Position numbers and translations under genes: made by a program
Shown: one piece after another, positions 1 through 44,618 of the stretch
Layout: each line of letters opens with the position of its first letter
Position numbering within the stretch: position 1 is the stretch's first letter
Origin: Gigantopelta aegis
Lineage: Eukaryota > Mollusca > Gastropoda > Neomphalida > Peltospiridae
Direction: 5' to 3'
DNA length: 64,000 nt
NCBI RefSeq assembly: GCF_016097555.1
Contig: NC_054701.1
Coordinates: 607,049 to 671,048 of the forward strand
Notes under the pieces: generated by a model
Databases searched by the model: none
The model's input: the letters and a program-made list of their open reading frames with translations, nothing else
What the model was told of the DNA's origin: nothing

Positions 1-43
1 TTATTTTGAGCACACGTTTTGACAATTACATAATCAAGTTCAC

Positions 44-1837
44 ATGGATAGCATATGGTCAGTAGAACAAGTAGTTGATAATTTTATATCTAGTTTAGAT
101 GAAACTGAGATAAATTATTTAACTGTAGCACGGTTGAAAGAAATTGCTGAACACGTAGGATTAGAGTTGGACATTGGTTTGAAGAAAGCTGAAATAAAAT
201 CGTTGGTGATAGATTTCTTAAGAAATATGGCAGAAAGTAAAATTCAGTTAGATTCAAAGGTGTATACTGGTAGGGAAATTGGTAGTGTTGAACTTGATAA
301 TGAAGATAGTTTAGCTATGTTGAAACTTAAGTTGGACTTTCAGAGAGAACAATTAATGTATGAGAGGGAACAAAGAAATTTGGAGAGAGAAAATGAGAGG
401 GAACAAAGAAATTTGGAGAGAGAAGATAGAGAAAAACATAGAGAATGGGAGACAACACAAAGATCTCTCGATAGGGATATTAAAAGTAGAGAGTTGGATA
501 ACTATAGCAAGTTTGATCCACAAAGATATATTAGGATGGTTCCTATTTTTAATGAAAATCAAGTTGATGAATTTTTTGATTGTTTTGAAAAGATAGCTCT
601 TGGGGCTGAATGGCCAAAACGGTATTGGTGTTTATTGTTGCAATCTGCTTTGAAAGGTAAAGCACAAATGGCTTATGCAGCGCTTTCTGTTGATGATTCT
701 TCGTCATATGACTTAGTTAAAGCTGCTATTTTAAGAGCTTATGAAAAGGTGCCTGAGGTGTACCAACAAGATTTTCGAAATCTTAGGATTTCAGGTGGAC
801 AATCTTATTTAGAGTTTGCCAAAGAAAAAGAAAGGTTATTTCGGAAATGGTGTAGTTCAAAGTCTGTGAATAATGATTGTGAGAAATTAGAAGAACTCAT
901 TCTTATAGAAGAGTTTATGAGAGGTTTGCCATCAGAAGTGGTAATTCATTTACAGGTGCGTGAACCAAGTACATTAGCTGAGGCAGCTATAATGGCTGAT
1001 AAATTTGTTTTAGCAAACCGTAAACCTGATTTCAGTAATAAACCGAAGTCACAAAGTTATACTTTCAAACAAAGTGGAAGCAGTAGAGATGGTTCAGTTA
1101 GGAATAATAATACACCGCGAGATATGGGTAAATCTCAAGATCAGAAAAATTCGGGATCACTCCAGTGTTTTTATTGTAAAAGAATGGGTCACATTAGACG
1201 TGATTGCCGGAAATTGAAATATGATCTTGGAAGTGGCAATCGTTCTGGGCACACACATTTTGTATCTCAGTTGTCTGAACCTTTGAATTCAAAATGTCAA
1301 ATTAAAGATGCGTTATCTAGGGTTAAGAAAAGAAATCCAAGGTTTGAACCATTTCTGACTTCTGGTCATGTGGTTACATCACACGATGGTGATGTGAAAC
1401 AATCTATAGTGATTTTGCGAGATACTGGTGCTGAACGAACAATCTTACTTGAAAAAGAATTGTTAGATAAGGACAACACATTTTTGGGCGAGTATATTAC
1501 TTTGTCCACAGTTGAAGGTACTATATCTAGTCCGTTACATACTGTCGAGTTGGATAGTGATTTGGTTAAAGGCAGTATTGTGGTAGCAGCGGTTAGCCAT
1601 ATACCAATTGCGGGTGTATCATTATTGTTAGGGAATGATGTAGCTCAGGAAAGGGTTATTCCTGTACCCATTATGACTGAAATTCCTGAAACTGATGTTG
1701 AAACAGAAAAGTTATCTGATGTGATTGATAACATCTTTCCCGCATGTGTTACAACTCGGTCTCAAAACAAAAGTTGCACAGGAAAATTAGGGTTGAGAAT
1801 GAGGTTGCCAATAAAAATTGGGATATTTCTGATTTAG
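44..1837 (+). CDS. gag: gag-protease frame of the Gmr1-like element
   Basis: 597 residues. Seen in order: an N-terminal region of about 100 residues; a charged coiled-coil stretch (about residues 105-155) with an internally duplicated REQRNLERE motif; a capsid-like region (about 160-330) whose end, around residues 280-325, resembles the SCAN fold (EEFMRGLPSEVV followed by EAAIMADKFV); one CCHC zinc knuckle at about 375-388 (CFYCKRMGHIRRDC); and a retropepsin-like domain with DTGA at about 460. Known: SCAN domains of vertebrate zinc-finger proteins are thought to derive from gag of Gmr1-like elements. The end of the frame overlaps the pol frame by about 90 nt, as in Ty3-type elements that express pol by ribosomal frameshifting. 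The first ATG lies 43 nt into the window. Confidence 0.85.
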   Translation: MDSIWSVEQVVDNFISSLDETEINYLTVARLKEIAEHVGLELDIGLKKAEIKSLVIDFLRNMAESKIQLDSKVYTGREIGSVELDNEDSLAMLKLKLDFQREQLMYEREQRNLERENEREQRNLEREDREKHREWETTQRSLDRDIKSRELDNYSKFDPQRYIRMVPIFNENQVDEFFDCFEKIALGAEWPKRYWCLLLQSALKGKAQMAYAALSVDDSSSYDLVKAAILRAYEKVPEVYQQDFRNLRISGGQSYLEFAKEKERLFRKWCSSKSVNNDCEKLEELILIEEFMRGLPSEVVIHLQVREPSTLAEAAIMADKFVLANRKPDFSNKPKSQSYTFKQSGSSRDGSVRNNNTPRDMGKSQDQKNSGSLQCFYCKRMGHIRRDCRKLKYDLGSGNRSGHTHFVSQLSEPLNSKCQIKDALSRVKKRNPRFEPFLTSGHVVTSHDGDVKQSIVILRDTGAERTILLEKELLDKDNTFLGEYITLSTVEGTISSPLHTVELDSDLVKGSIVVAAVSHIPIAGVSLLLGNDVAQERVIPVPIMTEIPETDVETEKLSDVIDNIFPACVTTRSQNKSCTGKLGLRMRLPIKIGIFLI

Positions 1838-4776
1838 GTGATACTTTTATTGGTCATGATTCTGCGCCCGAATTAGGTTCAAATCTGGAAAATGGTTCAG
1901 ATCGGGAAAAATGTTTTGACCATGAAGTAGGTAACCCAGAAGAAGAAAAAATATTGCAACAGTTACCAGATGACAATGATAGGTTAATTTTAAATCTTAA
2001 CCATGATCAGTTTATTCTTGAGCAACAAGCTGATAGTGAATTACAAATCCTTTCAAAGGAAGTGTTAGAAAAATCCGAGTTGGATGAAGAACCAGTTGGC
2101 TATTATTTCGAAAATGGTGTTTTAATGAGAAAGTTTCGAGATAAACATTCACAGAATAATGATTGGCAGGTGATGCATCAAATCGTTGTTCCTAAAAGTT
2201 GTCGGAAAACTGTGTTGAGTTTAGCTCATGATGGTCCATTAGCAGGGCATTCAGGGGTACGTAAAACGTATCAAAGGATTTTGAAACAATTTCATTGGCC
2301 GCATTTACATCGTGATGTTGTTAGGTATTGTTTAACCTGTAAAACATGTCAGATTGTTGGTAAACCCAATCAAAGTATTAAACCAGCTAGTTTGATACCC
2401 ATTCCCGCAGTTAATGAAGCTTTCAGTGAGGTTATAGTTGATTGCGTTGGTCCTTTACCTCGCACTGTTCATGGTAAAGAATACTTATTGACCGTTCTTT
2501 GCAAAAATACACGGTTTCCTGAAGCCATACCTCTGAGCAATATTAGGGCTAAAACAGTTGTTGAGGAATTGATTAAAATCTTTACTCGATATGGATTTCC
2601 GAAATTCATTCAAACTGATCAAGGTAGCAATTTCACTTCGAAATTGTTTCAGCAAGTGATGGATGAATTGGCCATTAAACATCATTTTTCTTCTGCTTAT
2701 CATCCTGAAACCCAAGGTGCGTTGGAACGATTTCATGGAACTTTGAAATCCATGATTCGAAAGTTTTGCCTGGAAAAGGGTAAAGACTGGGATGAAGGTA
2801 TTCATTTGCTGATGTTTGCGATTAGAGATACTTATCACGAATCCATGGGATTCACTCCTTTTGAAATGTTATATGGACATTCAGTTCGTGGTCCATTACA
2901 AATGTTACACGAGTTTTGGACAAACTCGGAGGTAAAAAGTGAAACTAGTGTGTTGAAATATGCGATTGATTTGCGGGAAAAATTGCAAACAGTTAGAGAA
3001 ATATCCCGAAATGTGTTATCCGATAGTCAAGATAAAATGAAAACATGGTTTGATAAAAGAGCTAGAGATAGATCTTTCGATGCCGGGGAAGAAGTGTTAG
3101 TTTTGTTTCCTTTGGTTAATCAACCATTAAGTGCAAAATTTCAAGGACCGTATATTGTTGAAAAAAAAATCAGTGCGGTTGATTATGTCATCCGTACTCC
3201 TGATCGTAAAAAGAAAACTCAGCTTTGCCATGTTAATATGCTTAAAAAATATTATAATCGGGAAAACGTCTTGGCTAATACAATAATTCTTTCAGGGATA
3301 GATTCTGATGTTAAGATGAAAGATGATAATTTTAATCCAGTTGAGCCGAAATTGGTAAATTCGAGGATATTGTTTAATCTTCATTTAAAAATCAGCCATT
3401 TAAGTGAAAAACAACAAAGTGATGTTCAACAAATCATTTCTGAATTTAGCCAAATTTTCCCAGATGTTCCTAGTCGAACAAATGTTATTAAACATGATGT
3501 TGATGTTGGTGATTCCAAGTCAATTAAGCAACATGCTTATCGAGTTAATCCACAAAAACAGGAACTTATCCGAAAAGAAATAGATTATATGCTTGAGAAC
3601 GGCATTATTCAACCTAGTTTTAGTAACTGGAGTTCTCCTTGTTTACTTGTTCCTAAACCTGATGGTAGTGTACGGTTCTGTACAGATTTTCGCAAAGTTA
3701 ATGCTGTGACCAAATCAGATTCGTTTCCTATCCCACGAATTGATGACTGCATTGATAAATTAGGAACTGCTAAGTATATTAGCAAGTTTGACCTTTTGAA
3801 AGGTTACTGGCAAATACCATTAACTAAACGGGCCAGAGAAATCTCTGCGTTTGTAACCGCTGATGGGTTATTCGAATATCTGGTTTGTCCATTTGGAATG
3901 AAAAATTCTCAGGCTACATTCCAGAGAATGATTAATCAGGTCATTTCTGGATTAGAACAATGTCAGGCTTATGTTGATGATATTGTTGTTTATAGTCATA
4001 GTTGGAATCAGCATATTAGTCAAATCAAGGAACTGTTTGGTAGACTTTCTAAAGCCCGGTTGACTGTGAACTTGGGTAAAAGTGATTTTGCTAAAGCTAC
4101 TGTTGTTTTTCTTGGACATGTGGTTGGTCAAGGGCAAGTAAGGCCACTTGAGGCCAAAGTTGAAAGCATTGATGCATTCGGCGTACCTAAAACAAGAAAA
4201 CAGTTGATGAGATTTTTAGGAATGGCTGGGTATTATAGGAAATTTTGTAAAAATTTCAGTATAATTACTTTCCCTTTAACAAATTTACTCAAACAAAATG
4301 TTAAATACATTTGGACCAAAGAATGTCAAGATGCGTTCAATAGTGTGAAAAACATATTGAAAAGTAAACCTGTGCTTATGGCACCCGATTTTAGGAAACC
4401 TTTTCAATTGACTGTAGATGCTAGCGATATTGGAGCTGGTGCAGTTTTGTCACAATGCAATGAACAAGGAGTATTTCATCCTGTCGCTTACTTTTCTAGA
4501 AAGTTCAATAGTCATCAAAATAAATATTCAACTGTTGAAAAGGAAACATTATCACTGTTGTTGGCCTTGGATCATTTTGAGGTTTACGTGTGTAACCCAA
4601 TTGAATCAATTATCGTTTGGACTGATCATAATCCCCTTGTGTTTTTACATAAAATGAAAAATAAAAATCAAAGATTGTTAAGGTGGTCTTTGCAGTTACA
4701 GGAATACGATCTTCAGATATGCCATATAAAGGGAAAGGAAAATGTGGTAGCAGATGCTTTATCTAGAATGGAATAA
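1744..4776 (+). CDS. pol: pol frame (integrase, reverse transcriptase, RNase H) of the Gmr1-like element
   Basis: 1010 residues. Seen in order: an HHCC zinc-binding integrase N-terminus at about 160-205 (H..H, then CLTCKTC); a DDE integrase core at about 225-390 (TDQGSNF, ALERFHG); a GPY/F-like module near 463 (KFQGPYIV); a reverse transcriptase at about 590-780 (FCTDFRKVNAV, KFDLLKGYWQIPL, catalytic YVDD near 743); and RNase H from about 880 to the end (VDASDIGAGA, VADALSR). The sequence of each domain is gypsy-like, while the order is the one seen in copia. A few residues before the HHCC module are unassigned. The stop is followed by about 230 nt of untranslated sequence before the polypurine tract. 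Confidence 0.9.
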   Translation: MCYNSVSKQKLHRKIRVENEVANKNWDISDLGDTFIGHDSAPELGSNLENGSDREKCFDHEVGNPEEEKILQQLPDDNDRLILNLNHDQFILEQQADSELQILSKEVLEKSELDEEPVGYYFENGVLMRKFRDKHSQNNDWQVMHQIVVPKSCRKTVLSLAHDGPLAGHSGVRKTYQRILKQFHWPHLHRDVVRYCLTCKTCQIVGKPNQSIKPASLIPIPAVNEAFSEVIVDCVGPLPRTVHGKEYLLTVLCKNTRFPEAIPLSNIRAKTVVEELIKIFTRYGFPKFIQTDQGSNFTSKLFQQVMDELAIKHHFSSAYHPETQGALERFHGTLKSMIRKFCLEKGKDWDEGIHLLMFAIRDTYHESMGFTPFEMLYGHSVRGPLQMLHEFWTNSEVKSETSVLKYAIDLREKLQTVREISRNVLSDSQDKMKTWFDKRARDRSFDAGEEVLVLFPLVNQPLSAKFQGPYIVEKKISAVDYVIRTPDRKKKTQLCHVNMLKKYYNRENVLANTIILSGIDSDVKMKDDNFNPVEPKLVNSRILFNLHLKISHLSEKQQSDVQQIISEFSQIFPDVPSRTNVIKHDVDVGDSKSIKQHAYRVNPQKQELIRKEIDYMLENGIIQPSFSNWSSPCLLVPKPDGSVRFCTDFRKVNAVTKSDSFPIPRIDDCIDKLGTAKYISKFDLLKGYWQIPLTKRAREISAFVTADGLFEYLVCPFGMKNSQATFQRMINQVISGLEQCQAYVDDIVVYSHSWNQHISQIKELFGRLSKARLTVNLGKSDFAKATVVFLGHVVGQGQVRPLEAKVESIDAFGVPKTRKQLMRFLGMAGYYRKFCKNFSIITFPLTNLLKQNVKYIWTKECQDAFNSVKNILKSKPVLMAPDFRKPFQLTVDASDIGAGAVLSQCNEQGVFHPVAYFSRKFNSHQNKYSTVEKETLSLLLALDHFEVYVCNPIESIIVWTDHNPLVFLHKMKNKNQRLLRWSLQLQEYDLQICHIKGKENVVADALSRME

Positions 4777-6747: not shown

Positions 6748-8238
6748 CTAAAATTTCCCAAAAACACTACGCGGTGTATCGCTCGATCCATCGACAAATT
6801 CAATTGCGATATCTCGTGCAGTGCACTCGGCAAGACGATTTCTGTGCACATGACAGACCATCACGTCTGCTGTGCTGCTGCCAAATGTAGATGATGCCTC
6901 ATTCAGTGCCTCCAGCACGTGTGCGTAGTTGCTAAGGACGGCTCTAACGGCAATCCCACGTGACAGCCAGCGTGTTGGACAAAGCGGCTTCAGGCGTGAA
7001 GGGGAAGGGCTATCATCCATAACTTGCAGATCGAGATACAAATTTTTAAATTTGCCTGATGAGTTGTAGAAGCCGCCCAGTTCCTGCACCACGTTAAGAG
7101 CATCGCGAAGGAACGGTGCACTCTCGATGGCCTTCGCACAGATGAGGTGCGTGATGTGTGCACCGCAATGCGTGTAGTTTGCCAGTGGTTGTACTTTCTT
7201 GATCAGTGCTTGGCAGCCTTGGTATTTGCCCGACATATTGCTGGCTCCGTCATACGTTTGCGCTCTCAGATGCGTGATTGGGAGGTTGAGTCTGAGCAAC
7301 GCGTCTTGCAGCATATTGCTGAGGCTGGCACCAGTCATCTCAGATACGCTGTACAGACCGATAAAGTCCTCGTGAACGTCGTAAGCGTCGTCTATATATC
7401 GCACGCATATTGCCTCCTGTTCAACGCCTTGGATGTCTTGGGTTCCGTCGACAATGACTGCAAAAAGGCCCACGTTCTTGCAAATATTTCGCAGCACCAT
7501 GTGTGCCATGATTTTTAACAGTTCGTTTTGCACGGCAACGCTTGTGTATGAAGTTGTGCGTGTCAACCACCTCTGTAACACGACGTCGTCGTTGCTCCGC
7601 AGCTCTAACAACTTCATGAAGTTACCGTCGCTTGACTCTTTGCCGCGTATTGCCAGTCCCTGCTGCGCTAGATACTGGACGGTCGTCACAATCTTCAGCA
7701 GAGCGTTGCGCGCCTTCGTTTGTTCTTCAAGATGGTGCGTACTTAACTGTGCGTCAACGTTGTTGTTGGAAGACCGGAATTTCAGGTTGCTATGAGAAAT
7801 CATATGTGCAGATGTCTTTTCGTGGATTTTGAATTTCTCAATTGCCTTCTTCCAGTTGCAAAATCCCTTGGAAACAAATGTGTCCTCTGAATACCGCGCC
7901 ATGCCGGCCAAGTCCATGCATGCTGCTTTAGCACAAGTAAAGCAGAGTACTCCGCTAACGTTAGCGTCAAAGTGGAGCCATGGAAAGCTATCGAACCACG
8001 CGCGCTGAAAACATAGCGTTCGTTTAGCGAGCCGTTGCACCGGCATGCAGTTGACGTCCCGTGGCTGGTACGGCACTGGCGGTAAGATGGGCAACCGTGT
8101 CTGAGAAGTGACTCTTTTCTCTGTTTTTTCTTTAACATCTTCACCAACAACTTCGACATTTGAATCCGGTGTCGTCCCTACTCGCAACAGAGTCTGGGCA
8201 TGGCGTGGTATGGCAGTGAAGAACTTTTTAATGTCCAT
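6748..8238 (-). pseudogene. hAT transposase with TTF-type zinc finger (DUF4371/ZMYM1-like), C-terminally truncated
   Basis: The start chosen is the ATG at 8236-8238 (MDIKKFF), typical for this subfamily. The frame is open upstream to 8412, but that extension looks like leader sequence. Seen: a TTF-type zinc-finger region (RAWFDSFPWLHFD then GVLCFTCAKA); the DUF4371 transposase core with the first catalytic Asp in AVIVDGTQD, the second in TYDGASNMSGKYQG, a conserved CGAHITHL, and CPTRWLSR further on. After about residue 480 similarity stops and the protein ends in VFGKF. The C-terminal catalytic Glu and the hATC dimerisation domain are absent, so it is very unlikely to be active by itself. A minus-strand AATAAA lies at about 6655-6660 in the short 3' UTR. 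The protein is about 200-250 residues shorter than usual for the family. Confidence 0.85.
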
Positions 8239-8877
8239 GGTAGTTTTTCTACGGTATACTATCTCCGTTAGCGTTTCGTCCTGGACGATGCAGTTTGCCA
8301 AATAACCTGCGTGTAATTCATCAAATTCGAATTGTTGTATCAAATAGCATGTCAAAATAACCGGATATAAGCCTATGGGTACAATGATAATTGACGAATA
8401 CATTGTATGCAAAATATTCGTTATTAGATTCCTGGAGACTGGAGTAGTTGTTTTTCCGACGATATAACCACGGCCGGTCTATAACAACTAAACTAGTGAC
8501 CATCATCTACCTAGCGCATGCGCTATTGGTAGTTTGATCCGATGTCCTTGTTTCAAAATAAAATAAACGCATTTTTTTCAGAATAAATAAAAAATAATAA
8601 TAATTAAACAATATTATTTACTTGACAAATTAACAAATATCGCTAGTAACCATTATTTATATAACTTTCGTTCCGTCTTTCCTTTACGTGTTTTATTTTA
8701 TTATTAATTTCAAATGTCTTTTATTGGGTTTTTCAAATTATAAAAAAGTAGACGCCAGTACTGAACATTTCTGGTGTTACATTTTTATAGACTTTCTGCC
8801 CCAACACTTGGGTATAATTATTTCAAATTACACATCACTACCTAAGTTTATAGATTGATATTTCTATTGATGATGAA

Positions 8878-13708: not shown

Positions 13709-15228
13709 TGAACAAAAAAAGAAACTTCCGATTTTTACATATAGTATTTGTTGTGTTAAAGAATTCATTGTGTAATGAAATTATATAGGTAGTATTAGCC
13801 TTGAGCTGTATTATCAGGATTCATGAATTTTATCGATTATTTTTGCACTGTTAATCGTCGACAACGTGAAATTCAATTTGCACGTGCATGCATGGTTCAG
13901 CATGTCCCGTGTAGTATTCGGTCAATTTGTTTTACTTGTCTTAGTGACATTGTTGTCAAGTGAACGAAAACGCTTCAAAATTTGTACAAAAAATTACGTT
14001 TTTTACATTGTAGCATTTTTAGTATGCCAAGAATACCCAATAATTTACGCGAACGAGCGATTGGCATGCTTGATGCTGGCATGTCGACAGAAGACGTTGC
14101 AAGGCATGTTCGGAGTTATAGTCGAGCGATACGAAATCTTCGCGTAAGATTTCGAACGACAGGAAGCACCAACGACTTGCCACGTCGTGGACGTCCGCGT
14201 GTTACAACGCGTGGTCAAGACCGCTATACCATGAACACGCATTTGCGCAATCGATTCCAAACTGCCACTGCTGCTAACACACCTGGGCTTCATAATAACC
14301 GAATCAGTGGGCAAACTGGTCGTAATCGTCTGCGGGAGAACAGTTTACATGCACGACGTCCTTACGTCGGATGCGTTTTAACGCAACGTCATCGTCTAAA
14401 TCGTCTTAATTGGGCACGTGTACACACTCGTTGGATACGGCGACGCTGGAATACCATTCTTTTTTCGGATGAATCCAGATTTTCTTTACAACATGGTGAT
14501 GGCAGGGTGCGCGTCTACCGTAGGAGAAACGAACGCTATGCTGACTGTTGTGTTCTTGAACGAGATCGTTTCGGGGGTGGGGGTTGTGTCATGGTCTGGG
14601 CAGCCATCGTTCACCACTAGTCGTCATTGATGGCAATTTAAATGCTCAACGTTACCGCGATGACATTCTCGCTCATCACATCATTCCTCTGTTCCATAAC
14701 AACGCCAACATCTCGATTTTTCAGCATGATAATGCCACCTCTCGTACAGCTAGAGACACTGTACATTTTCTTAGGACAAATAACATTGATTTCATTGATG
14801 ACTGGCCCGCTAAAAGTCCTGATCTCAACCCCACCGAGCATGTCTGGGATAGTCTGGACAGACGATTGAGGCGTCGTCCCAACCCACCCGCTAACGTCAA
14901 CGAACTTCGTCAAGCGCTCATTCGGGAATGGAACAATATTCCACAGGCAGAAATCAACACTTTAGTCAATTCTATGCGCATGCGATGCACTGCAGTGGTC
15001 AATTCAAAAGGTGGTCATACCCGTTATTAAGTGGGTGTTGTTGTTTTTTTTAACCACTACCACACTTGGTCAAAATTTCTCCCAATTTCTGTTAACCTAT
15101 GGCCATGATTTTTGCACCAAACGATGCATCATGGAACACTCTTTAAACGCATATATAACAATTATTCCCCAGGTTTGTTTTCATCAAGTTATGTTCAAGC
15201 AAAGTTAGCGGAAGTTTCTTATTTTGTT

Positions 15229-22470: not shown

Positions 22471-22800
22471 ATACAGGAAAGTATCTTGGCAATACACAGT
22501 TTTGTATAATGTAAAATCCATTTTTAGTATATAACAACCACAATACATCTACGAAGTCTCCGACATTGTTCTGGAGACTTACTCACGATATATCGTCTTT
22601 GTTTCCATGACTTGTCACCAAAAATAGGGCAGTGTTCTATTAACAGCAATCAGAATACATTACATATTTATGTCGTTGTATAAGGTGGACTATATTTTTC
22701 CGCATACGATTAAATGAGTTTGCAGGTGATATGTATACGAATCGTTCTACAATAAACAAACCGTACGTAGCTTACAAAATTAATGTTTTATTACTGCAAT

Positions 22801-22928
22801 TAAATGGACAAGAAAAAGAATCAATCACCGTTGTGAGGTATAGATAAGGCAATTCTAACCCTCGGGTTGGAATAGCCTTATCTATACCTCACAATGGTGA
22901 TAGATTCTATTAATATATATTTGTCCAT
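22801..22928. repeat. Foldback element of about 127 bp
   Basis: Arms around CACCGTTGTGAGGTATAGAT / ATCTATACCTCACAATGGTG meet at a 1- to 3-nt centre near 22863. Each arm is about 58 bp with few mismatches. It resembles a tiny hairpin MITE. Confidence 0.85.
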
Positions 22929-23453
22929 ACATTTTCTACTCGACTCCAATATAACACAATATAATCAAGTCAAAGTAACTGTGTCATACATTTTCTACTC
23001 GACTCCAGTATAACACAATATAATCAAGTCAAAGTAAGTCATACATTTTCTACATGACTCCAGTATAACACAATATAATCAAGTCAAAGTAAGTCATAAA
23101 TTTTTTACTCGACTCCATTATAACACAATATAATCAAGTCAAAGTAAGTCATACATTTTCTACATGACTCCAGTATAACACAATATAATCAAGTAAAAAT
23201 AACTGTCATACATTTTCTACTCGACTCCAGTATAACACAATATAATCAAGTCAAAGTAACTGTGTCATACATTTTCTACATGACTCCAGTATAACACAAT
23301 ATAATCAAGTCAAAGTAACTGTGTCATACATTTTCTACTCGACTCCAGTATAACACAATATAATCAAGTCAAAGTAACTGTGTCATACATTTTCTACATG
23401 ACTCCATTATAACACAATATAATCAAGTCAAAGTAAGAGTCATACATTTACTA
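22925..23453. repeat. Minisatellite of 52-59 bp units, about nine copies
   Basis: The unit contains CATACATTTTCTACTCGACTCC and TATAACACAATATAATCAAG. Length varies by presence of AACTGTG before the next unit. It runs almost directly into the 48-bp array. Confidence 0.93.
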
Positions 23454-23517
23454 TGTGGGCTCCCATCATGACTTGTTACTTGCATCCCATGCAATGGTAC
23501 AATTAGGCCTATCGGGC

Positions 23518-26500
23518 ATGTTAGATGTGTTCTTACTTCACTGTGACTGCCGGTGTCTATGGTACATGTTAGATGTGTTCTTACTTCACTGTGACTGCCG
23601 GTGTCTATGGTACATGTTAGATGTGTTCTTACTTCACTGTGACTGCCGGTGTCTATGGTACATGTTAGATGTGTTCTTACTCCACTGTCACTGCCGGTGT
23701 CTATGGTACATGTTAGATGTGTTCTTACTCCACTGTGACTGCCGGTGTCTATGGTACATGTTAGATGTGTTCTTACTTCACTGTGACTGCCTGTGTCTAT
23801 GGTACATGTTAGATGTGTTCTTACTCCACTGTGACTGCCGGTGTCTATGGTACAATTAGGCTTATCGGGCATGTTAGATGTGTTCTTACTCCACTGTGAC
23901 TGCCGGTGTCTATGGTACATTTAGGCTTATCGGGCATGTTAGATGTGTTCTTACTCCACTGTGACTGCCGGTGTCTATGGTACATTTAGGCTTATCGGGC
24001 ATGTTAGATGTGTTCTTACTTCACTGTGACTGCCGGTGTCTATGGTACATGTTAGATGTGTTCTTACTTCACTGTGACTGCCGGTGTCTATGGTACATGT
24101 TAGATGTGTTCTTACTTCACTGTGACTGCCGGTGTCTATGGTACATGTTAGATGTGTTCTTACTCCACTGTGACTGCCGGTGTCTATGGTACATGTTAGA
24201 TGTGTTCTTACTCCACTGTGACTGCCGGTGTCTATGGTACATGTTAGATGTGTTCTTACTTCACTGTGACTGCCTGTGTCTATGGTACATGTTAGATGTG
24301 TTCTTACTCCACTGTGACTGCCGGTGTCTATGGTACAATTAGGCTTATCGGGCATGTTAGATGTGTTCTTACTCCACTGTGACTGCCGGTGTCTATGGTA
24401 CATTTAGGCTTATCGGGCATGTTAGATGTGTTCTTACTCCACTGTGACTGCCGGTGTCTATGGTACATTTAGGCTTATCGGGCATGTTAGATGTGTTCTT
24501 ACTTCACTGTGACTGCCGGTGTCTATGGTACATGTTAGATGTGTTCTTACTTCACTGTGACTGCCGGTGTCTATGGTACATGTTAGATGTGTTCTTACTT
24601 CACTGTGACTGCCGGTGTCTATGGTACATGTTAGATGTGTTCTTACTCCACTGTGACCCGGTGTCTATGGTACATGTTAGATGTGTTCTTACTTCACTGT
24701 GACCCGGTGTCTATGGTACATGTTAGATGTGTTCTTACTTCACTGTGACTGCCGGTGTCTATGGTACATGTTAGATGTGTTCTTACTTCACTGTGACTGC
24801 CGGTGTCTATGGTACATTTAGGCTTATCGGGCATGTTAGATGTGTTCTTACTTCACTGTGACTGCCGGTGTCTATGGTACAATTAGGCTTATCGGGCATG
24901 TTAGATGTGTTCTTACTTCACTGTGACTGCCGGTGTCTATGGTACAATTAGGCTTATCGGGCATGTTAGATGTGTTCTTACTCCACTGTGACTGCCGGTG
25001 TCTATGGTACAATTAGGCTTATCGGGCATGTTAGATGTGTTCTTACTTCACTGTGACTGCCGGTGTCTATGGTACAATTAGGCTTATCGGGCATGTTAGA
25101 TATGTTCTTACTCCACTGTGACTGCCGGTGTCTATGGTACATGTTAGATGTGTTCTTACTTCACTGTGACTGCCGGTGTCTATGGTACATGTTAGATGTG
25201 TTCTTACTTCACTGTGACTGCCGGTGTCTATGGTACATGTTAGATGTGTTCTTACTTCACTGTGACTGCCGGTGTCTATGGTACATGTTAGATGTGTTCT
25301 TACTCCACTGTGACCCGGTGTCTATAGTACATGTTAGATGTGTTCTTACTTCACTGTGACTGCCGGTGTCTATGGTACATGTTAGATGTGTTGTTACTTC
25401 ACTGTGACTGCCGGTGTCTATGGTACATGTTAGATGTGTTCTTACTTCACTGTGACTGCTGGTGTCTATGGTACATTTAGACTTATCGGGCATGTTAGAT
25501 GTGTTCTTACTCCACTGTGACCCGGTGTCTATGGTACATGTTAGATGTGTTCTTACTTCACTGTGACTGCCGGTGTCTATGGTACATTTAGGCTTATCGG
25601 GCATGTTAGATGTGTTCTTACTTCACTGTGACTGCCGGTGTCTATGGTACAATTAGGCTTATCGGGCATGTTAGATGTGTTCTTACTCCACTGTGACTGC
25701 CGGTGTCTATGGTACATGTTAGATGTGTTCTTACTTCACTGTGACTGCCGGTGTCTATGGTACAATTAGGCTTATCGGGCATGTTAGATGTGTTCTTACT
25801 TCACTGTGACTGCCGGTGTCTATGGTACAATTAGGCTTATCGGGCATGTTAGATGTGTTCTTACTTCACTGAGACTGCCGGTGTCTATGGTACATGTTAG
25901 ATGTGTTCTTACTCCACTGTGACCCGGTGTCTATGGTACATGTTAGATGTGTTCTTACTCCACTGTGACTGCCGGTGTCTATGGTACATGTTAGATGTGT
26001 TCTTACTCCACTGTGACCCGGTGTCTATGGTACATGTTAGATGTGTTCTTACTCCACTGTGACTGCCGGTGTCTATGGTACCTGTTAGATGTGTTCTTAC
26101 TCCACTGTCACTGCCGGTGTCTATGGTACCTGTTAGATGTGTTCTTACTCCACTGTCACTGCCGGTGTCTATGGTACATGTTAGATGTGTTCTTACTCCA
26201 CTGTCACTGCCGGTGTCTATGGTACATGTTAGATGTGTTCTTACTTCACTGTGACTGCCGGTGTCTATGGTACATGTTAGATGTGTTCTTACTTCACTGT
26301 GACTGCCGGTGTCTATGGTACAATTAGGCTTATCGGGCATGTTAGATGTGTTCTTACTCCACTGTGACCCGGTGTCTATGGTACATGTTAGATGTGTTCT
26401 TACTCCACTGTGACTGCCGGTGTCTATGGTACATGTTAGATGTGTTCTTACTCCACTGTGACTGCCGGTGTCTATGGTACATGTTAGATGTGTTCTTACT

Positions 26501-27931
26501 CCACTGTCACTGCCGGTGTCTATGGTACATGTTAGATGTGTTCTTACTCCACTGTCACTGCCGGTGTCTATGGTACCTGTTAGATGTGTTCTTACTCCAC
26601 TGTCACTGCCGGTGTCTATGGTACATGTTAGATGTGTTCTTACTCCACTGTGACTGCCGGTGTCTATGGTACATGTTAGATGTGTTCTTACTCCATTGTG
26701 ACTGCCGGTGTCTATGGTACATGTTAGATGTGTTCTTACTCCACTGTGACTGCCGGTGTCTATGGTACATGTTAGATGTGTTCTTACTCCACTGTGACTG
26801 CCGGTGTCTATGGTACATGTTAGATGTGTTCTTACTCCACTGTCACTGCCGGTGTCTATGGTACCTGTTAGATGTGTTCTTACTTCACTGTCACTGCCTG
26901 TGTCTATGGTACATGTTAGATGTGTTCTTACTCCACTGTCACTGCCGGTGTCTATGGTACATGTTAGATGTGTTCTTACTCCACTGTCACTGCCGGTGTC
27001 TATGGTACATGTTAGATGTGTTCTTACTCCACTGTGACCCGGTGTCTATGGTACATGTTAGATGTGTTCTTACTTCACTGTCACTGCCGGTGTCTATGGT
27101 ACATGTTAGATGTGTTCTTACTTCACTGTCACTGCCGGTGTCTATGGTACATGTTAGATGTGTTCTTACTTCACTGTCACTGCCGGTGTCTATGGTACAT
27201 GTTAGATGTGTTCTTACTTCACTGTGACTGCCGGTGTCTATGGTACAATTAGGCTTATCAGGCATGTTAGATGTGTTCTTACTCCACTGTGACCCGGTGT
27301 CTATGGTACATGTTAGATGTGTTCCTACTCCACTGTGACTGCCGGTGTCTATGGTACATGTTAGATGTGTTCTTACTCCACTGTGACTGCCGGTGTCTAT
27401 GGTACATGTTAGATGTCTTCTTACTCCACTGTCACTGCCGGTGTCTATGGTACATGTTAGATGTGTTCTTACTTCACTGTGACTGCCGGTGTCTATGGTA
27501 CATGTTAGATGTGTTCTTACTTCACTGTGACTGCCGGTGTCTATGGTACATGTTAGATGTGTTCTTACTCCACTGTGACCCGGTGTCTATGGTACATGTT
27601 AGATGTGTTCTTACTTCACTGTCACTGCCGGTGTCTATGGTACATGTTAGATGTGTTCTTACTTCACTGTGACTGCCGGTGTCTATGGTACATGTTAGAT
27701 GTGTTCTTACTTCACTGTGACTGCCGGTGTCTATGGTACATGTTAGATGTGTTCTTACTTCACTGTGACTGCCGGTGTCTATGGTACATGTTAGATGTGT
27801 TCTTACTCCACTGTGACCCGGTGTCTATGGTACATGTTAGATGTGTTCTTACTTCACTGTGACTGCCGGTGTCTATGGTACATGTTAGATGTGTTCTTAC
27901 TTCACTGTGACTGCCGGTGTCTATGGTACAT
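23518..27931. repeat. 4.4-kb minisatellite, 48-bp unit, about 90 copies, with higher-order structure
   Basis: The unit reads ATGTTAGATGTGTTCTTACT...GCCGGTGTCTATGGTAC. Variants: a 65-bp form with a 17-nt AATTAGGCTTATCGGGC insert, a 46-bp form with GTGACCCGG in place of GTGACTGCCGG, and CTTCA/CTCCA and GTGAC/GTCAC point variants. A block of about 483 bp repeats as a whole (23.52 kb onward against 24.00 kb onward, sharing a rare GCCTGTGTC variant). Because 48 is a multiple of three, frames stay open on the plus strand (MLDVFLLHCDCRCLWY) and on the minus strand (CTIDTGSHSEVRTHLT). The right edge encodes the end of the TLCD3-like gene. Confidence 0.97.
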
Positions 27932-28177
27932 TTTGTAAAATGCTCTGAATGCACCCCTGACCATCAAAAATAGCCAATAGAATTGAAATAGTAGAACGAA
28001 ACTACAGCCGAGACTGCACTTGATGGGGATAGTGCTTGGTACAGACAAGATGGAGATATTTGCGTGATTTGCGTATGTCCAGTAGAGGTAGGGAAATATC
28101 AGAACACGGCTGACGGCGAATGCAAAGATCATCAGAAGACTGGTCAGCACATACCACAATGTGTCCTTCAGTTTCAG
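27902..28177 (-). CDS. TLCD3-like: TLCD3/FAM57-type TLC-domain protein, last coding exon
   Basis: Host gene on the minus strand. The exon starts after a good acceptor (TGTATTTTGCAG) in phase 0 and encodes 91 residues: LKLKDTLWYVLTSLL, then AFAVSRVLIFPYLYWTY and PIKCSLGCSFVLLFQFYW, ending RGAFRAFYK plus nine more. From memory this matches the C-terminal half of the TLC domain of vertebrate TLCD3A/TLCD3B (FAM57A/B), multi-pass ER/Golgi or plasma-membrane proteins tied to ceramide and sphingolipid metabolism. At least two hydrophobic helices are visible. The last nine residues (MYHRHRQSQ) and the TGA stop come from a 48-bp satellite monomer, so the 3' UTR must lie in or beyond the array unless another splice is used. 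Confidence 0.85.
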   Translation of the reverse strand: MKLKDTLWYVLTSLLMIFAFAVSRVLIFPYLYWTYANHANISILSVPSTIPIKCSLGCSFVLLFQFYWLFLMVRGAFRAFYKMYHRHRQSQ

Positions 28178-28249
28178 CTGCAAAATACAATTAAAAACAA
28201 ATATCTGAAAAGGGTCTTACCATATTTAATGTTGGATTGGCAAATTTGA

Positions 28250-28475
28250 CGATACGATAAATAGAGGATAATAAATGAGTTACCAGTTATTATCAATAAA
28301 CGAGTTACCAGTTATTATCAATAAACGAGTTACCAGTTATTATTAAAATTTATGTCCCGAGTGAAATAATGTTTACTTGTTACAAGCTTTAGCGAGTGAC
28401 AAGTGAAAATTATTTCACTCGGGATATAAATTTGATAATAATTACTGGTACCGAGTTTGTTATTCTATTTATTAC
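28250..28475. repeat. Foldback element with tandemly repeated left end
   Basis: The arms (28326-28383 and 28396-28455) pair over about 58 nt: CGAGTTACCAGTTATTATTA...CCCGAGTGAAATAAT against its complement. The left end (ACGAGTTACCAGTTATTATC) occurs three times in a row from about 28276. The outer flanks also pair weakly (ATAAATAGAGGATAATAAATG). A hairpin MITE is likely. Confidence 0.8.
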
Positions 28476-33840: not shown

Positions 33841-36800
33841 ACAGACCGACAAGGTGTCAAGAGCCAACACAGTGTCAAGAACCAACACTAAACAAATTAC
33901 CGACAAGGTGTCAAAAAGAGCCGACACTAAACAACAGACCGACAAGGTGTCAAGAGCCGATACTAAACAACAGACCGACAAGGTGTCAAGAGCCGATACT
34001 AAACAACAGACCGACAAGGTGTCAAGAGCCGAAACTAAACAACAGACCGACAAGGTGTCAAGAGCCAATACTAAACAACAGACCAACAAGGTGTCAAGAG
34101 CTGATACTAAACAACAGACCGATACTAAACAACAGACCGACAAGGTGTCAAGAGCCAATACTAAACAACAGACCGATACTAAAGAACAGACTGACAAGGT
34201 GTCAAGAGCCGATACTAAACAACAGACCGACAAGGTGTCAAGAGCCGATACTAAACAACAGACCGACAAGGTGTCAAGAGCCGAAACTAAACAACAGACC
34301 GACAAGGTGTCAAGAGCTGATACTAAACAACAGACTGACAAGGTGTCAAGAGCCGATACTAAACAACAGACCGACAAGGTGTCAAGTGCTGAAACTAAAC
34401 AACAGACCGACAAGGTGTCAAGAGCCGATACTAAACAACAGACCGACAAGGTGTCAAGAGCCGAAACTAAACAACAGACCGACAAGATGTCAAGAGCCGA
34501 TACTAAACAACAGACCGACAAGGTGTCAAGAGCCGATACTAAACAACAGACCGACAAGGTGTCAAGAGCCGAAACTAAACAACAGACCGACAAGGTGTCA
34601 AGAGCCGATACTAAACAACAGACCGACAAGGTGTCAAGAGCCGAAACTAAACAACAGACCGACAAGGTGTCAAGAGCCGATACTAAACAACAGACCGACA
34701 AGGTGTCAAGAGCCGAAACTAAACAACAGACCGACAAGGTGTCAAGAGCCGATACTAAACAACAGACCGACAAGGTGTCAAGAGCCCAGACTGACAAGGT
34801 GTCAAAAGAGCCGAAACTAAACAACAGACTGACAAGGTGTCAAGAGCCGATACTAAACAACAGACCGACAAGGTGTCAAGAGCCGATACTAAACAACAGA
34901 CTGACAAGGTGTCAAAAGAGCCGACACTAAACAACAGACTGACAAGGTGTCAAGAGCCGATACTAAACAACAAACTGACAAGGTGTCAAAAGAGCCGAAA
35001 CTAAACAACAGACCGACAAGGTGTCAAGAGCCGACACTAAACAACAGACCGACAAGGTGTCAAGAACCGACTCTAAACAAAAGATGGACAAGCTGTCAAG
35101 AGCCGACACTAAACAACAGACGGACAAGGTGTCAAGATCCAACACTAAACAAAAGACGGACAAGGTATTCAAGAGCCGACACTAAACAACAGACAGACAA
35201 GGTGTCAAGAGCCGACACTAAACAACAGACTGACAAGGTGTCAACACTAAACAACAGACTGACAAGGTGTCAAGAGCCAATACTAAACAACAGACTGACA
35301 AGGTGTCAAGAGCCGATACTAAACAACAGACTGACAAGGTGTCAAAAGAGCCGACACTAAACAACAGACTGACAAGGTGTCAAAAGAGCCGATACTAAAC
35401 AACAGACTGACAAGGTGTCAAGAGCCGATACTAAACAACAGACTGACAAGGTGTCAAGAGCCGATACTAAACAACAGACTGACAAGGTGTCAAAAGAGCC
35501 GACACTAAACAACAGACTGACAAGATGTCAATAGCCGACACTAAACAACAGACTGACAAGGTGTCAAAAGAGCCGAAACTAAACAACAGACCGACAAGGT
35601 GTCAAAAGAGCCGATACTAAACAACAGACTGACAAGGTGTCAAGAGCCGATACTAAACAACAGACCGACAAGGTGTCAAAAGAGCCGACACTAAACAACA
35701 GACTGACAAGGTGTCAAGAGCCGATACTAAACAACAGACTGACAAGATGTCAAAAGAGCCGACACTAAACAACAGACTGACAAGGTGTCAAGAGCTGATA
35801 CTAAACAACAGACTGACAAGGTGTCAAAAGAGCCGACACTAAACAACAGACTGACAAGATGTCAATAGCCGATACTAAACAACAGACTGACAAGGTGTCA
35901 AAAGAGCCGAAACTAAACAACAGACTGACAAGGTGTCAAGAGCCGACACTAAACAACAGACCGACAAGGTGTCAAAAGAGCCAAAGCTAAACAACAGACC
36001 ACAAGGTGTCAAGAGCCGACACTAAACAACAGACGGACAAGGTGTCAAAAGCCGATACTAAACAACAGACTGACAAGGTGTCAAAAGAGCCGACACTAAA
36101 CAACAGACTGACAAGGTGTCAAGAGCCGATACTAAACAACAAACTGACAAGGTGTCAAAAGAGCCGAAACTAAACAACAGACCGACAAGGTGTCAAGAGC
36201 CGACACTAAACAACAGACCGACAAGGTGTCAAAAGAGCCAAAGCTAAACAACAGACAGACAAGGTGTCAAGAGCCGACACTAAAGAACAGACGGACAATG
36301 TGTCAAGAGCCGACACTAAACAACAGACCGACAAGGTGTCAAGAACCGACTCTAAACAAAATATGGACAAGCTGTCAAGAGCCGACACTAAACAACAGAC
36401 GGACAAGGTGTCAAGATCCGACACTAAACAAAAGACGGACAAGGTATTCAAGAGCCGACACTAAACAACAGACAGACAAGGTGTCAAGAGCCGACACTAA
36501 ACAACAGACCGACAAGGTGTCAAAAGAGCTGACACTAAACAACAGACGGACAAGGTGTCAAGGGCCGACACTAAACAACAGACCGACACTAAACAAAAGA
36601 CGGACAAGCTGTCAAGAGCCGACACTAAACAACAGACGGACAAGGTGTCAAGAGCCGACACTAAACAAAAGACGGACAAGGTGTCAAGAGCGACACTAAA
36701 CAACAGACGGACAAGGTGTCAAGAGCGACACTAAACAACAGACAGACAAGGTGTCAAAAGAGCTGACACTAAACAACAGACGGACAAGGTGTCAAAAGAG

Positions 36801-36990
36801 CTGACATTAAACAGACGGACAAGGCGTCAAAAGAGCCGACACTAAACAACAGACGGACAAGGTGTCAAGAGCTGACACTAAACAGTCGGACAAGGTGTCA
36901 AGAGTGACAGTAAACAACAGACTGACAAGGTGTCAAGAGCCGACACTAAACAACAGACCGACAAGGTGTCAAAAACTAACACTAAACACG
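33841..36990. repeat. 3.1-kb minisatellite of 36/39-bp units, about 80 copies
   Basis: The unit is ACTAAACAACAGACCGACAA + GGTGTCAAGAGCCGAT; a +3 form has GTCAAAAGAGCCG. Early units are almost pure 36-mers; after about 34.9 kb 36- and 39-mers alternate, and a block around 34.97-35.16 kb reappears at 36.2-36.4 kb. Both strands are open for more than 350 codons (plus: TKQQTDKVSRAD; minus: LDTLSVCCLVSA). No domain or leader supports translation, and the array sits in a large intron. Confidence 0.96.
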
Positions 36991-37826: not shown

Positions 37827-39175
37827 AATGAATGTTTTCAACATGTGAGGCTCATATTTGACCTAATTATCCCCTTAAAGTTTGTATTATGCACTAGTAA
37901 ATGATATTAACGTGTGGTCAGATTAGAATGTTTTCAACATGTGAGGCTCATATTTGACCTAATTATCCCCTTAAAGTTTGTATTATGCACTAGTAAATGA
38001 TATTAACGTGTGGTCAGATTAGAATGTTTTCAACATGTGAGGCTCATATTTGACCTAATTATCCCCTTAAAGTTTGTATTATGCACTAGTAAATGATATT
38101 AACGTGTGGTCAGATTAGAATGTTTTCAACATGTGAGGCTCATATTTGACCTAATTATCCCCTTAAAGTTTGTATTATGCACTAGTAAATGATATTAACG
38201 TGTGGTCAGATTAGAATGTTTTCAACATGTGAGGCTCATATTTGACCTAATTATCCCCTTAAAGTTTGTATTATGCACTAGTAAATGATATTAACGTGTG
38301 GTCAGATTAGAATGTTTTCAACATGTGAGGCTCATATTTGACCTAATTATCCCCTTAAAGTTTGTATTATGCACTAGTAAATGATATTAACGTGTGGTCA
38401 GATTAGAATGTTTTCAACATGTGAGGCTCATATTTGACCTAATTATCCCCTTAAAGTTTGTATTATGCACTAGTAAATGATATTAACGTGTGGTCAGATT
38501 AGAATGTTTTCAACATGTGAGGCTCATATTTGACCTAATTATCCCCTTAAAGTTTGTATTATGCACTAGTAAATGATATTAACGTGTGGTCAGATTAGAA
38601 TGTTTTCAACATGTGAGGCTCATATTTGACCTAATTATCCCCTTAAAGTTTGTATTATGCACTAGTAAATGATATTAACGTGTGGTCAGATTAGAATGTT
38701 TTCAACATGTGAGGCTCATATTTGACCTAATTATCCCCTTAAAGTTTGTATTATGCACTAGTAAATGATATTAACGTGTGGTCAGATTAGAATGTTTTCA
38801 ACATGTGAGGCTCATATTTGACCTAATTATCCCCTTAAAGTTTGTATTATGCACTAGTAAATGATATTAACGTGTGGTCAGATTAGAATGTTTTCAACAT
38901 GTGAGGCTCATATTTGACCTAATTATCCCCTTAAAGTTTGTATTATGCACTAGTAAATGATATTAACGTGTGGTCAGATTAGACTGTTTTCAACATGTGA
39001 GGCTCATATTTGACCTAATTATCCCCTTAAAGTTTGTATTATGCACTAGTAAACGATATTAACGTGTGGTCAGATTAGAATGTTTTCAACATGTGAGGCT
39101 CATATTTGACCTAATTATCCCCTTAAAGTTTGTATTATGCACTAGTAAACGATATTAACGTGTGGTCAGATTAGA
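37827..39175. repeat. 96-bp array, about 14 nearly identical copies
   Basis: The unit contains GAATGTTTTCAACATGTGAG, TTATCCCCTTAAAGTTTG and GATATTAACGTGTGGTCAGA. Copies are almost identical, which points to recent amplification or homogenisation. Confidence 0.96.
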
Positions 39176-39915
39176 ATGTTTTCAACATGTGAGGCTCATA
39201 TTTGACCTAATTATCCCCTTAAAGTTTGTATTATGCACTAGTAAATGATATTAAAGTTTGTATTATGCACTAGTAAACGATATTAAAGTTTGTATTATGC
39301 ACTAGTAAACGATATTAAAGTTTGTATTATGCACTAGTAAACGATATTAAAGTTTGTATTATGCACTAGTAAACGATATTAAAGTTTGTATTATGCACTA
39401 GTAAATGATATTAAAGTTTGTATTATGCACTAGTAAATGATATTAAAGTTTGTATTATGCACTAGTAAACGATATTAAAGTTTGTATTATGCACTAGTAA
39501 ACGATATTAAAGTTTGTATTATGCACTAGTAAATGATATTAAAGTTTGTATTATGCACTAGTAAACGATATTAAAGTTTGTATTATGCACTAGTAAATGA
39601 TATTAAAGTTTGTATTATGCACTAGTAAACGATATTAAAGTTTGTATTATGCACTAGTAAATGATATTAAAGTTTGTATTATGCACTAGTAAACGATATT
39701 AAAGTTTGTATTATGCACTAGTAAATGATATTAAAGTTTGTATTATGCACTAGTAAATGATATTAAAGTTTGTATTATGCACTAGTAAACGATATTAAAG
39801 TTTGTATTATGCACTAGTAAATGATATTAAAGTTTGTATTATGCACTAGTAAACGATATTAAAGTTTGTATTATGCACTAGTAAATGATATTAACGTGTG
39901 GTCAGATTAGAATGT
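39176..39915. repeat. 32-bp array derived from the 96-bp unit
   Basis: About 20 copies of AAAGTTTGTATTATGCACTA + GTAAAYGATATT, with a T/C variant at one site. Exactly this segment lies within each 96-bp unit. One partial 96-bp-type end closes the array at 39890-39915. Confidence 0.95.
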
Positions 39916-40445: not shown

Positions 40446-40731
40446 TTTTTGATTTAGTACTACCTAAAGTGTGATGAGATTAGAGTGTGTATGGTATTTA
40501 TTAAAATTTTAGTTGTCTTTTTGTATTATGCACAGAACGTTAAGAGTGGTCAGATTACACTGTGTACCATATTGATTCAAATTCAAGTTGTGTTTGTATT
40601 ATGCACTAGTAAACAATGCTAAAATGTGGTTAGATTGCACATTTTAAGCCAAGCTTTAAAAAACCCAACAAAACATCTAAAAATATAATGCAGATGCAGA
40701 TACAGCAGTAAATTATGCATTTTTTCATTAC

Positions 40732-40827
40732 CTGAACTAAGATAAATCGGGCAGCAATGAATGGTACTGCCATTTCAAACAGATAAAATACACCAACAAA
40801 GAAATCGCCAAGATCTTTTCTGAAGAA
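40732..40827 (-). CDS. TLCD3-like: TLCD3/FAM57-type protein, internal coding exon
   Basis: 96 nt, phase 0 at both ends. The acceptor is TTTTATTTTCAG, the donor CAG|GTAATG (minus strand). It encodes 32 residues with [20 protein letters not shown] and ends RFILVQ. From memory, vertebrate TLCD3A has [20 protein letters not shown] and ILIQLK at the same place, so this exon and the one at 27902-28177 join in frame exactly at the conserved LIQ/VQ|LK boundary. It forms part of the TLC-domain membrane bundle. Confidence 0.88.
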
Positions 40828-44418: not shown

Positions 44419-44618
44419 NNNNNNNNNNNNNNNNNNNNNNNNNNNNNNNNNNNNNNNNNNNNNNNNNNNNNNNNNNNNNNNNNNNNNNNNNNNNNNNNNN
44501 NNNNNNNNNNNNNNNNNNNNNNNNNNNNNNNNNNNNNNNNNNNNNNNNNNNNNNNNNNNNNNNNNNNNNNNNNNNNNNNNNNNNNNNNNNNNNNNNNNNN
44601 NNNNNNNNNNNNNNNNNN
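44419..44618. other. Assembly gap, 200 N
   Basis: Exactly 200 Ns, the size of an arbitrary placeholder. It separates two unrelated arrays, so its real length is unknown. Confidence 0.98.

Follow-up and report, generated by a model that had tools for sequence, protein, structure and literature searches.

The last nine codons and the TGA stop of a TLCD3-like gene lie inside the first unit of a tandem array of 86 units, and we consider it likely that this array arose in place, on the last codons of the gene itself and the start of its 3′ UTR. The overlap, found in a 64,000-nucleotide stretch of Gigantopelta aegis DNA (the window), had been predicted from the sequence, and the coordinates, the reading frame and the repeat border (placed at 27931 by Tandem Repeats Finder) all agree with it. 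On the minus strand, positions 27931-27902 read ATG TAC CAT AGA CAC CGG CAG TCA CAG TGA; the C-terminal run of the last exon is RGAFRAFYK followed by MYHRHRQSQ, with the TGA at 27904-27902, and the nine codons and stop amount to the first 28 bases of unit 1 plus the preceding AT (Table 1). The original prediction was headed by the opposite direction, a gene taking its last codons from a satellite, and gave as its alternative that the array had grown from the gene's own last codons. As the unit was found only here, with no other copy detected in the assembly, and as the array abuts the coding sequence directly on the gene side, the headline direction is probably to be reversed and the alternative is favored.

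Table 1. Coordinates of the gene, array and signal features in the window.
Feature	Position	Strand	Basis
Last nine codons and TGA stop, inside first array unit	27902..27931	-	
Last coding exon found, 91 codons, end FYK-MYHRHRQSQ	27905..28177	-	Open frame, profile, alignment
Upstream coding exon, FFRKDLGDFFVG...FILVQ, 96 bp, phase 0, donor CAG/GTAATG	40732..40827	-	
Possible cryptic 5′ splice site GAA/GTAAGA, G of GT at 27900	27895..27903	-	Approximate matrix, inference
First AATAAA downstream of stop, inside dispersed repeat	22787..22792	-	
Tandem array, 86 units, unit found only here in assembly	23517..27931	-	Anchored splitting
Distal edge: 17-bp extension GCCCGATAGGCCTAATT of terminal unit (23517-23501), GTACCAT (23500-23494), unique DNA	23494..23517	-	

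Structure and confinement of the array

The array measures 4,415 bp, which bears out the earlier figure of up to 4.4 kb of satellite, and was divided by anchored splitting into 59 units of 48 bp, eight of 46 bp, 15 of 65 bp, three of 63 bp and one terminal unit of the 65-bp type. With its 86 head-to-tail units of 46-65 bp it has the form of a minisatellite, i.e., units of tens of base pairs in no more than about 100 copies. The 21-base unit core had 85 matches in the window against 0.00 expected, and the unit cores are on average 97.6% identical in pairwise comparison. The array also contains exact internal repeats of 483 bp, which reflect either recent block exchange or an effect of assembly. 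Unit 1 and the terminal unit both carry the modal core (32/86 units), a coincidence of little weight because the chance that a given unit has that core is 0.37.

When the assembly (1,149,253,464 bases, or 1.15 Gb, in 5,216 contigs) was searched for a 27-base pattern with up to three mismatches, 75 matches were obtained, all of them in this array and none on the other strand; the units of 46 bp and those of 63 bp, 11 in all, exceed three mismatches and hence fall outside the 75, and a reversed control pattern gave 0 and 0 matches in the same assembly. Among the matches listed by a DNA search of the assembly, 54/54 were this array, and since the array's own copies were thus reported, the unit's words had not been skipped as too common. 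The genome search scores the best candidates only, some stretches are masked as N in it, and copies diverged beyond the limits used would be missed; within the limits of both searches the unit is confined to one locus. With 75/75 pattern matches in a single array, no donor satellite is visible within these limits, and a satellite DNA family present at several loci was rejected as a description. A 19-base core with up to four mismatches occurred 86 times in 184 kb, always within the array, and viral contigs, a set that may leave out records of this genome, contained no exact match to the unit.

Tandem arrays 200 bp or longer are plentiful in this neighborhood, with 14 in the window (28.6% of it) and 32 in the next 120 kb (33.3%). 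These 46 arrays of the 184 kb include six related pairs and are mostly unrelated to each other, an abundance of mostly unrelated arrays that suggests local founding is common here. No other array in these 184 kb showed kinship with the one described here. Elsewhere in the window, about 0.6 kb from the 96-bp array at 37830-39894, a diverged relic of that array (69-84%) occupies positions 40520-40636, and a run of 200 N at 44419-44618 marks an assembly gap within a tandem region.

The 3′ UTR and the protein tail

On the gene strand the array is free of all 12 poly(A) hexamers tested; AGTAAA first appears at 23452 and AATAAA at 22792, the latter about 5.1 kb beyond the stop. Poly(A) signals are found only past the array, so that an unspliced 3′ UTR would extend for about 5.1 kb, and a long satellite 3′ UTR is therefore plausible on the sequence. 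It is possible, if somewhat doubtful, that the transcript instead avoids the array by splicing from GAA/GTAAGA, or from within the exon, to an acceptor past the array. This alternative arises because the donor-like GAA/GTAAGA adjoins the stop (starting one base after it, with similar sites recurring in other units), and the same absence of all 12 hexamers from the array speaks for it, as does a donor score of 2.63 at 27900 vs. 3.43 for the upstream exon's own donor; however, these scores come from an approximate matrix and were calculated for donors alone. A donor ahead of position 27931, which the original prediction had named as evidence against itself, was looked for on the same matrix, and candidates do exist at 28154 (2.67) and 27961 (1.3), although the former is unlikely to be used because its use would remove most of the conserved exon. 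Splicing of this kind bears on the extent of the 3′ UTR and not on the origin of the array, and it is compatible with founding in situ.

Copy-number change that retains unit 1 leaves the protein unaltered, since the native stop stays in unit 1 for as long as that unit keeps its TGA. At the stop site, 43/86 units have TGA and 43/86 have TGG, and when each unit was placed next to FYK in turn, 64/86 gave a tail of 7-10 residues and 22/86 a tail of 23-165 residues. Because TGA and TGG are equally frequent, one exchange at the edge could switch the protein between the short tail and a repeat tail of 23-165 residues. That the C-terminal codons belong to a still-exchanging array, with tail and stop evolving in concert with non-coding repeats, seems to us unlikely.

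Origin of the array

If the array was founded in situ, the gene would previously have ended with FYK, then MYHRHRQSQ and its stop, then about 35 nt of 3′ UTR, and the direct repeat GTACCAT would have stood near the start of that stretch with a second copy 65 bp further on. The 65-bp stretch would then have been duplicated as the two GTACCAT copies slipped or exchanged unequally, a 17-bp loss would have given rise to the 48-bp units, and continued exchange would have brought the two kinds of unit to 86, displacing the rest of the 3′ UTR by 4.4 kb. The distal end, where a 17-bp-extended unit is followed by GTACCAT and unique DNA, is likely the founding state. That the nine codons are older than the array, and that events followed this order, is what we infer.

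GTACCAT is present at both borders of the array, as it would likewise be for any array that ends in a partial unit. The border repeat can be extended to AAATGTACCAT on the gene side and AATTGTACCAT on the distal side, which are alike at 10/11 positions, and the 18 internal extended units (seven ending in AAAT and 11 in AATT) fit the split that exchange at the one mismatch of the border repeat would leave, the one observation on the borders that adds weight, though made post hoc and at one site. As a control, 170 pairs of 11-mers alike at 10/11 and 40-100 bp apart were counted over 44,398 start positions outside arrays; since such pairs are not rare across the window, the border seed is no proof. 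Minisatellite birth from flanking direct repeats of 5-10 bp is described in a review (PMC6947457), and the edge structure is consistent with birth of this type without proving it. The array resembles the minisatellites that arise from short direct repeats, as described by Haber and Louis (1998, via PMC6947457), in its unit of tens of base pairs, its restriction to one locus and perhaps its border repeat, and differs from them, as they are described there, in that the founding motif takes in a coding end and stop.

We regard as improbable the reverse course, in which a ready-made satellite, or else an insertion of the 58 bp between the two GTACCAT copies that was later amplified, replaced the old end of the gene (for instance MYHCMGCK*) and gave it a new stop. 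In that case GTACCAT, which does lie on both sides of the repeat, would be a 7-bp target-site duplication, and the flanks joined without the array do form an open empty-site frame, FYKMYHCMGCK*, that stops after five further codons. However, an invading unit without another copy found in the assembly has no visible source, and the alignment to human TLCD3A extends to 27938, only 6 bases short of the array. An ancestral tail other than MYHRHRQSQ, such as that of the joined flanks, is possible on this sequence. That the stop lies close to where the human protein ends carries little weight, since 22.75% of 2,000 shuffled sequences yield a tail of 7-13 residues.

A precedent for invasion is found in oyster, in which satellite-like arrays are carried by Helentron elements (Cg_HINE, PMC7492417), and the array studied here resembles these as a tandem array near a palindromic dispersed element. 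A piece of the dispersed element near this array extends from 22657 to about 22912-22920, ending before both arrays, and contains a 48-nt palindrome (90% complementary, 22814-22911); with 40 of 1,239 candidates scored, the element has at least 146 matching places, counting the one here. All seven copies that were fetched, each with 1.5 kb of flank, end at about the same point and lack the array unit, which together with the point at which the element stops argues against invasion from the distal side. In the oyster elements, as far as that source describes them, the arrays have conserved flanks of 50-100 bp and no target-site duplication, whereas here the arrays lie beyond the end of the element, its copies do not share the unit and there is no flank on the gene side. 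Carriage by a Helentron was thus rejected, as the coding sequence adjoins the array and 7/7 copies of the distal element are without the unit. A transposon-borne array in general was rejected on the same copies and because the end of a transposon would not fit on the gene side.

Founding in situ on the gene's last codons would, if true, make this a minisatellite whose founding sequence is still legible, with the last codons and stop of a gene as unit 1, and a natural test of whether repeat turnover rewrites a protein end and displaces a poly(A) signal. In relatives that have no array, the gene would then be expected to finish with MYHRHRQ-like residues and to continue into DNA resembling AGTAAGAACACATCTAACATG. 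The array is also comparable to VNTRs in 3′ UTRs, for example the SLC6A3 one (cited in PMC12776774), in having tandem units in the 3′ UTR of a gene; unlike the SLC6A3 VNTR, it begins inside the reading frame, has 86 units and is known from DNA alone. Among the titles listed by the literature searches, none dealt with an array spanning the stop codon of such a gene, which leaves room for published cases. General understanding is unchanged, because minisatellite birth and 3′ UTR VNTRs are already known, and the locus is most likely a neat case of an ordinary process.

The TLC-domain gene

The open frame at 27902-28216 (minus strand) ends ...MVRGAFRAFYKMYHRHRQSQ*, and the acceptor of the last exon, ...TTTTGCAG, lies just before 28177; that of the exon at 40827-40732 is ...TTTTCAG. 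Both exons are open, and their phases and splice sites match. Against the Pfam TLC domain family PF03798, the frame of the last exon alone scored 23.3 bits, slightly below the curated cut-off of 24.6 bits, and the two exons joined scored 38.3 bits, above it, which places the product in the family. With a human TLCD3A sequence as query, identity was 37% over 83 residues for the last exon (including three residues upstream of the acceptor) and 41% over 37 residues for the upstream exon, both aligned stretches extending a few residues beyond the exon borders. The resemblance to TLCD3 (FAM57) therefore consists of 37% identity to one human sequence from the sole TLC subfamily compared. On these sequence comparisons the last exon looks real, as part of a TLC-domain membrane-protein gene that is TLCD3-like.

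The gene model is partial. No N-terminal exons were found in 120 kb upstream with the human query, a search in which short divergent exons are easily missed. A Pfam-family search of the genome returned 26 TLC-family places at E up to 10 (controls, 0/14 genomes) and the two exons of this gene are absent from them, so that a search of this kind overlooks such exons; on both results the gene may not be intact. It is very unlikely that the exons are the remains of a decaying gene whose tail is without meaning, as the missing N-terminal exons might suggest, given that both are open and agree in phase and splice sites, that their joined Pfam score is above the cut-off and that no second copy was found in the assembly at E <0.5 (13 candidates scored, only these two exons matching). 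Solved structures gave no matches at E up to 1, and the single NCBIfam match (E 0.53) was dismissed as meaningless.

Scanning the window for Rfam families and for tRNAs (ARAGORN, bacterial code) returned nothing. The intron preceding the last exon contains a 43-nt palindrome (86% complementary, 28346-28433), and a 36-bp array at 33854-36988 lies inside this 12.5-kb intron; its unit equals twelve codons, and it is partly open on the plus strand over 383 residues. Two overlapping long frames at 23-4776 are of the LTR-retrotransposon kind, the first matching SCAN and zinc-knuckle domains and the second pol-like as judged by eye. A frame of 576 residues with DUF4371 is present on the minus strand at 6748-8478, and a transposase-like pair of overlapping frames, the first matching HTH_Tnp_Tc3_2, is located at 13964-15030.
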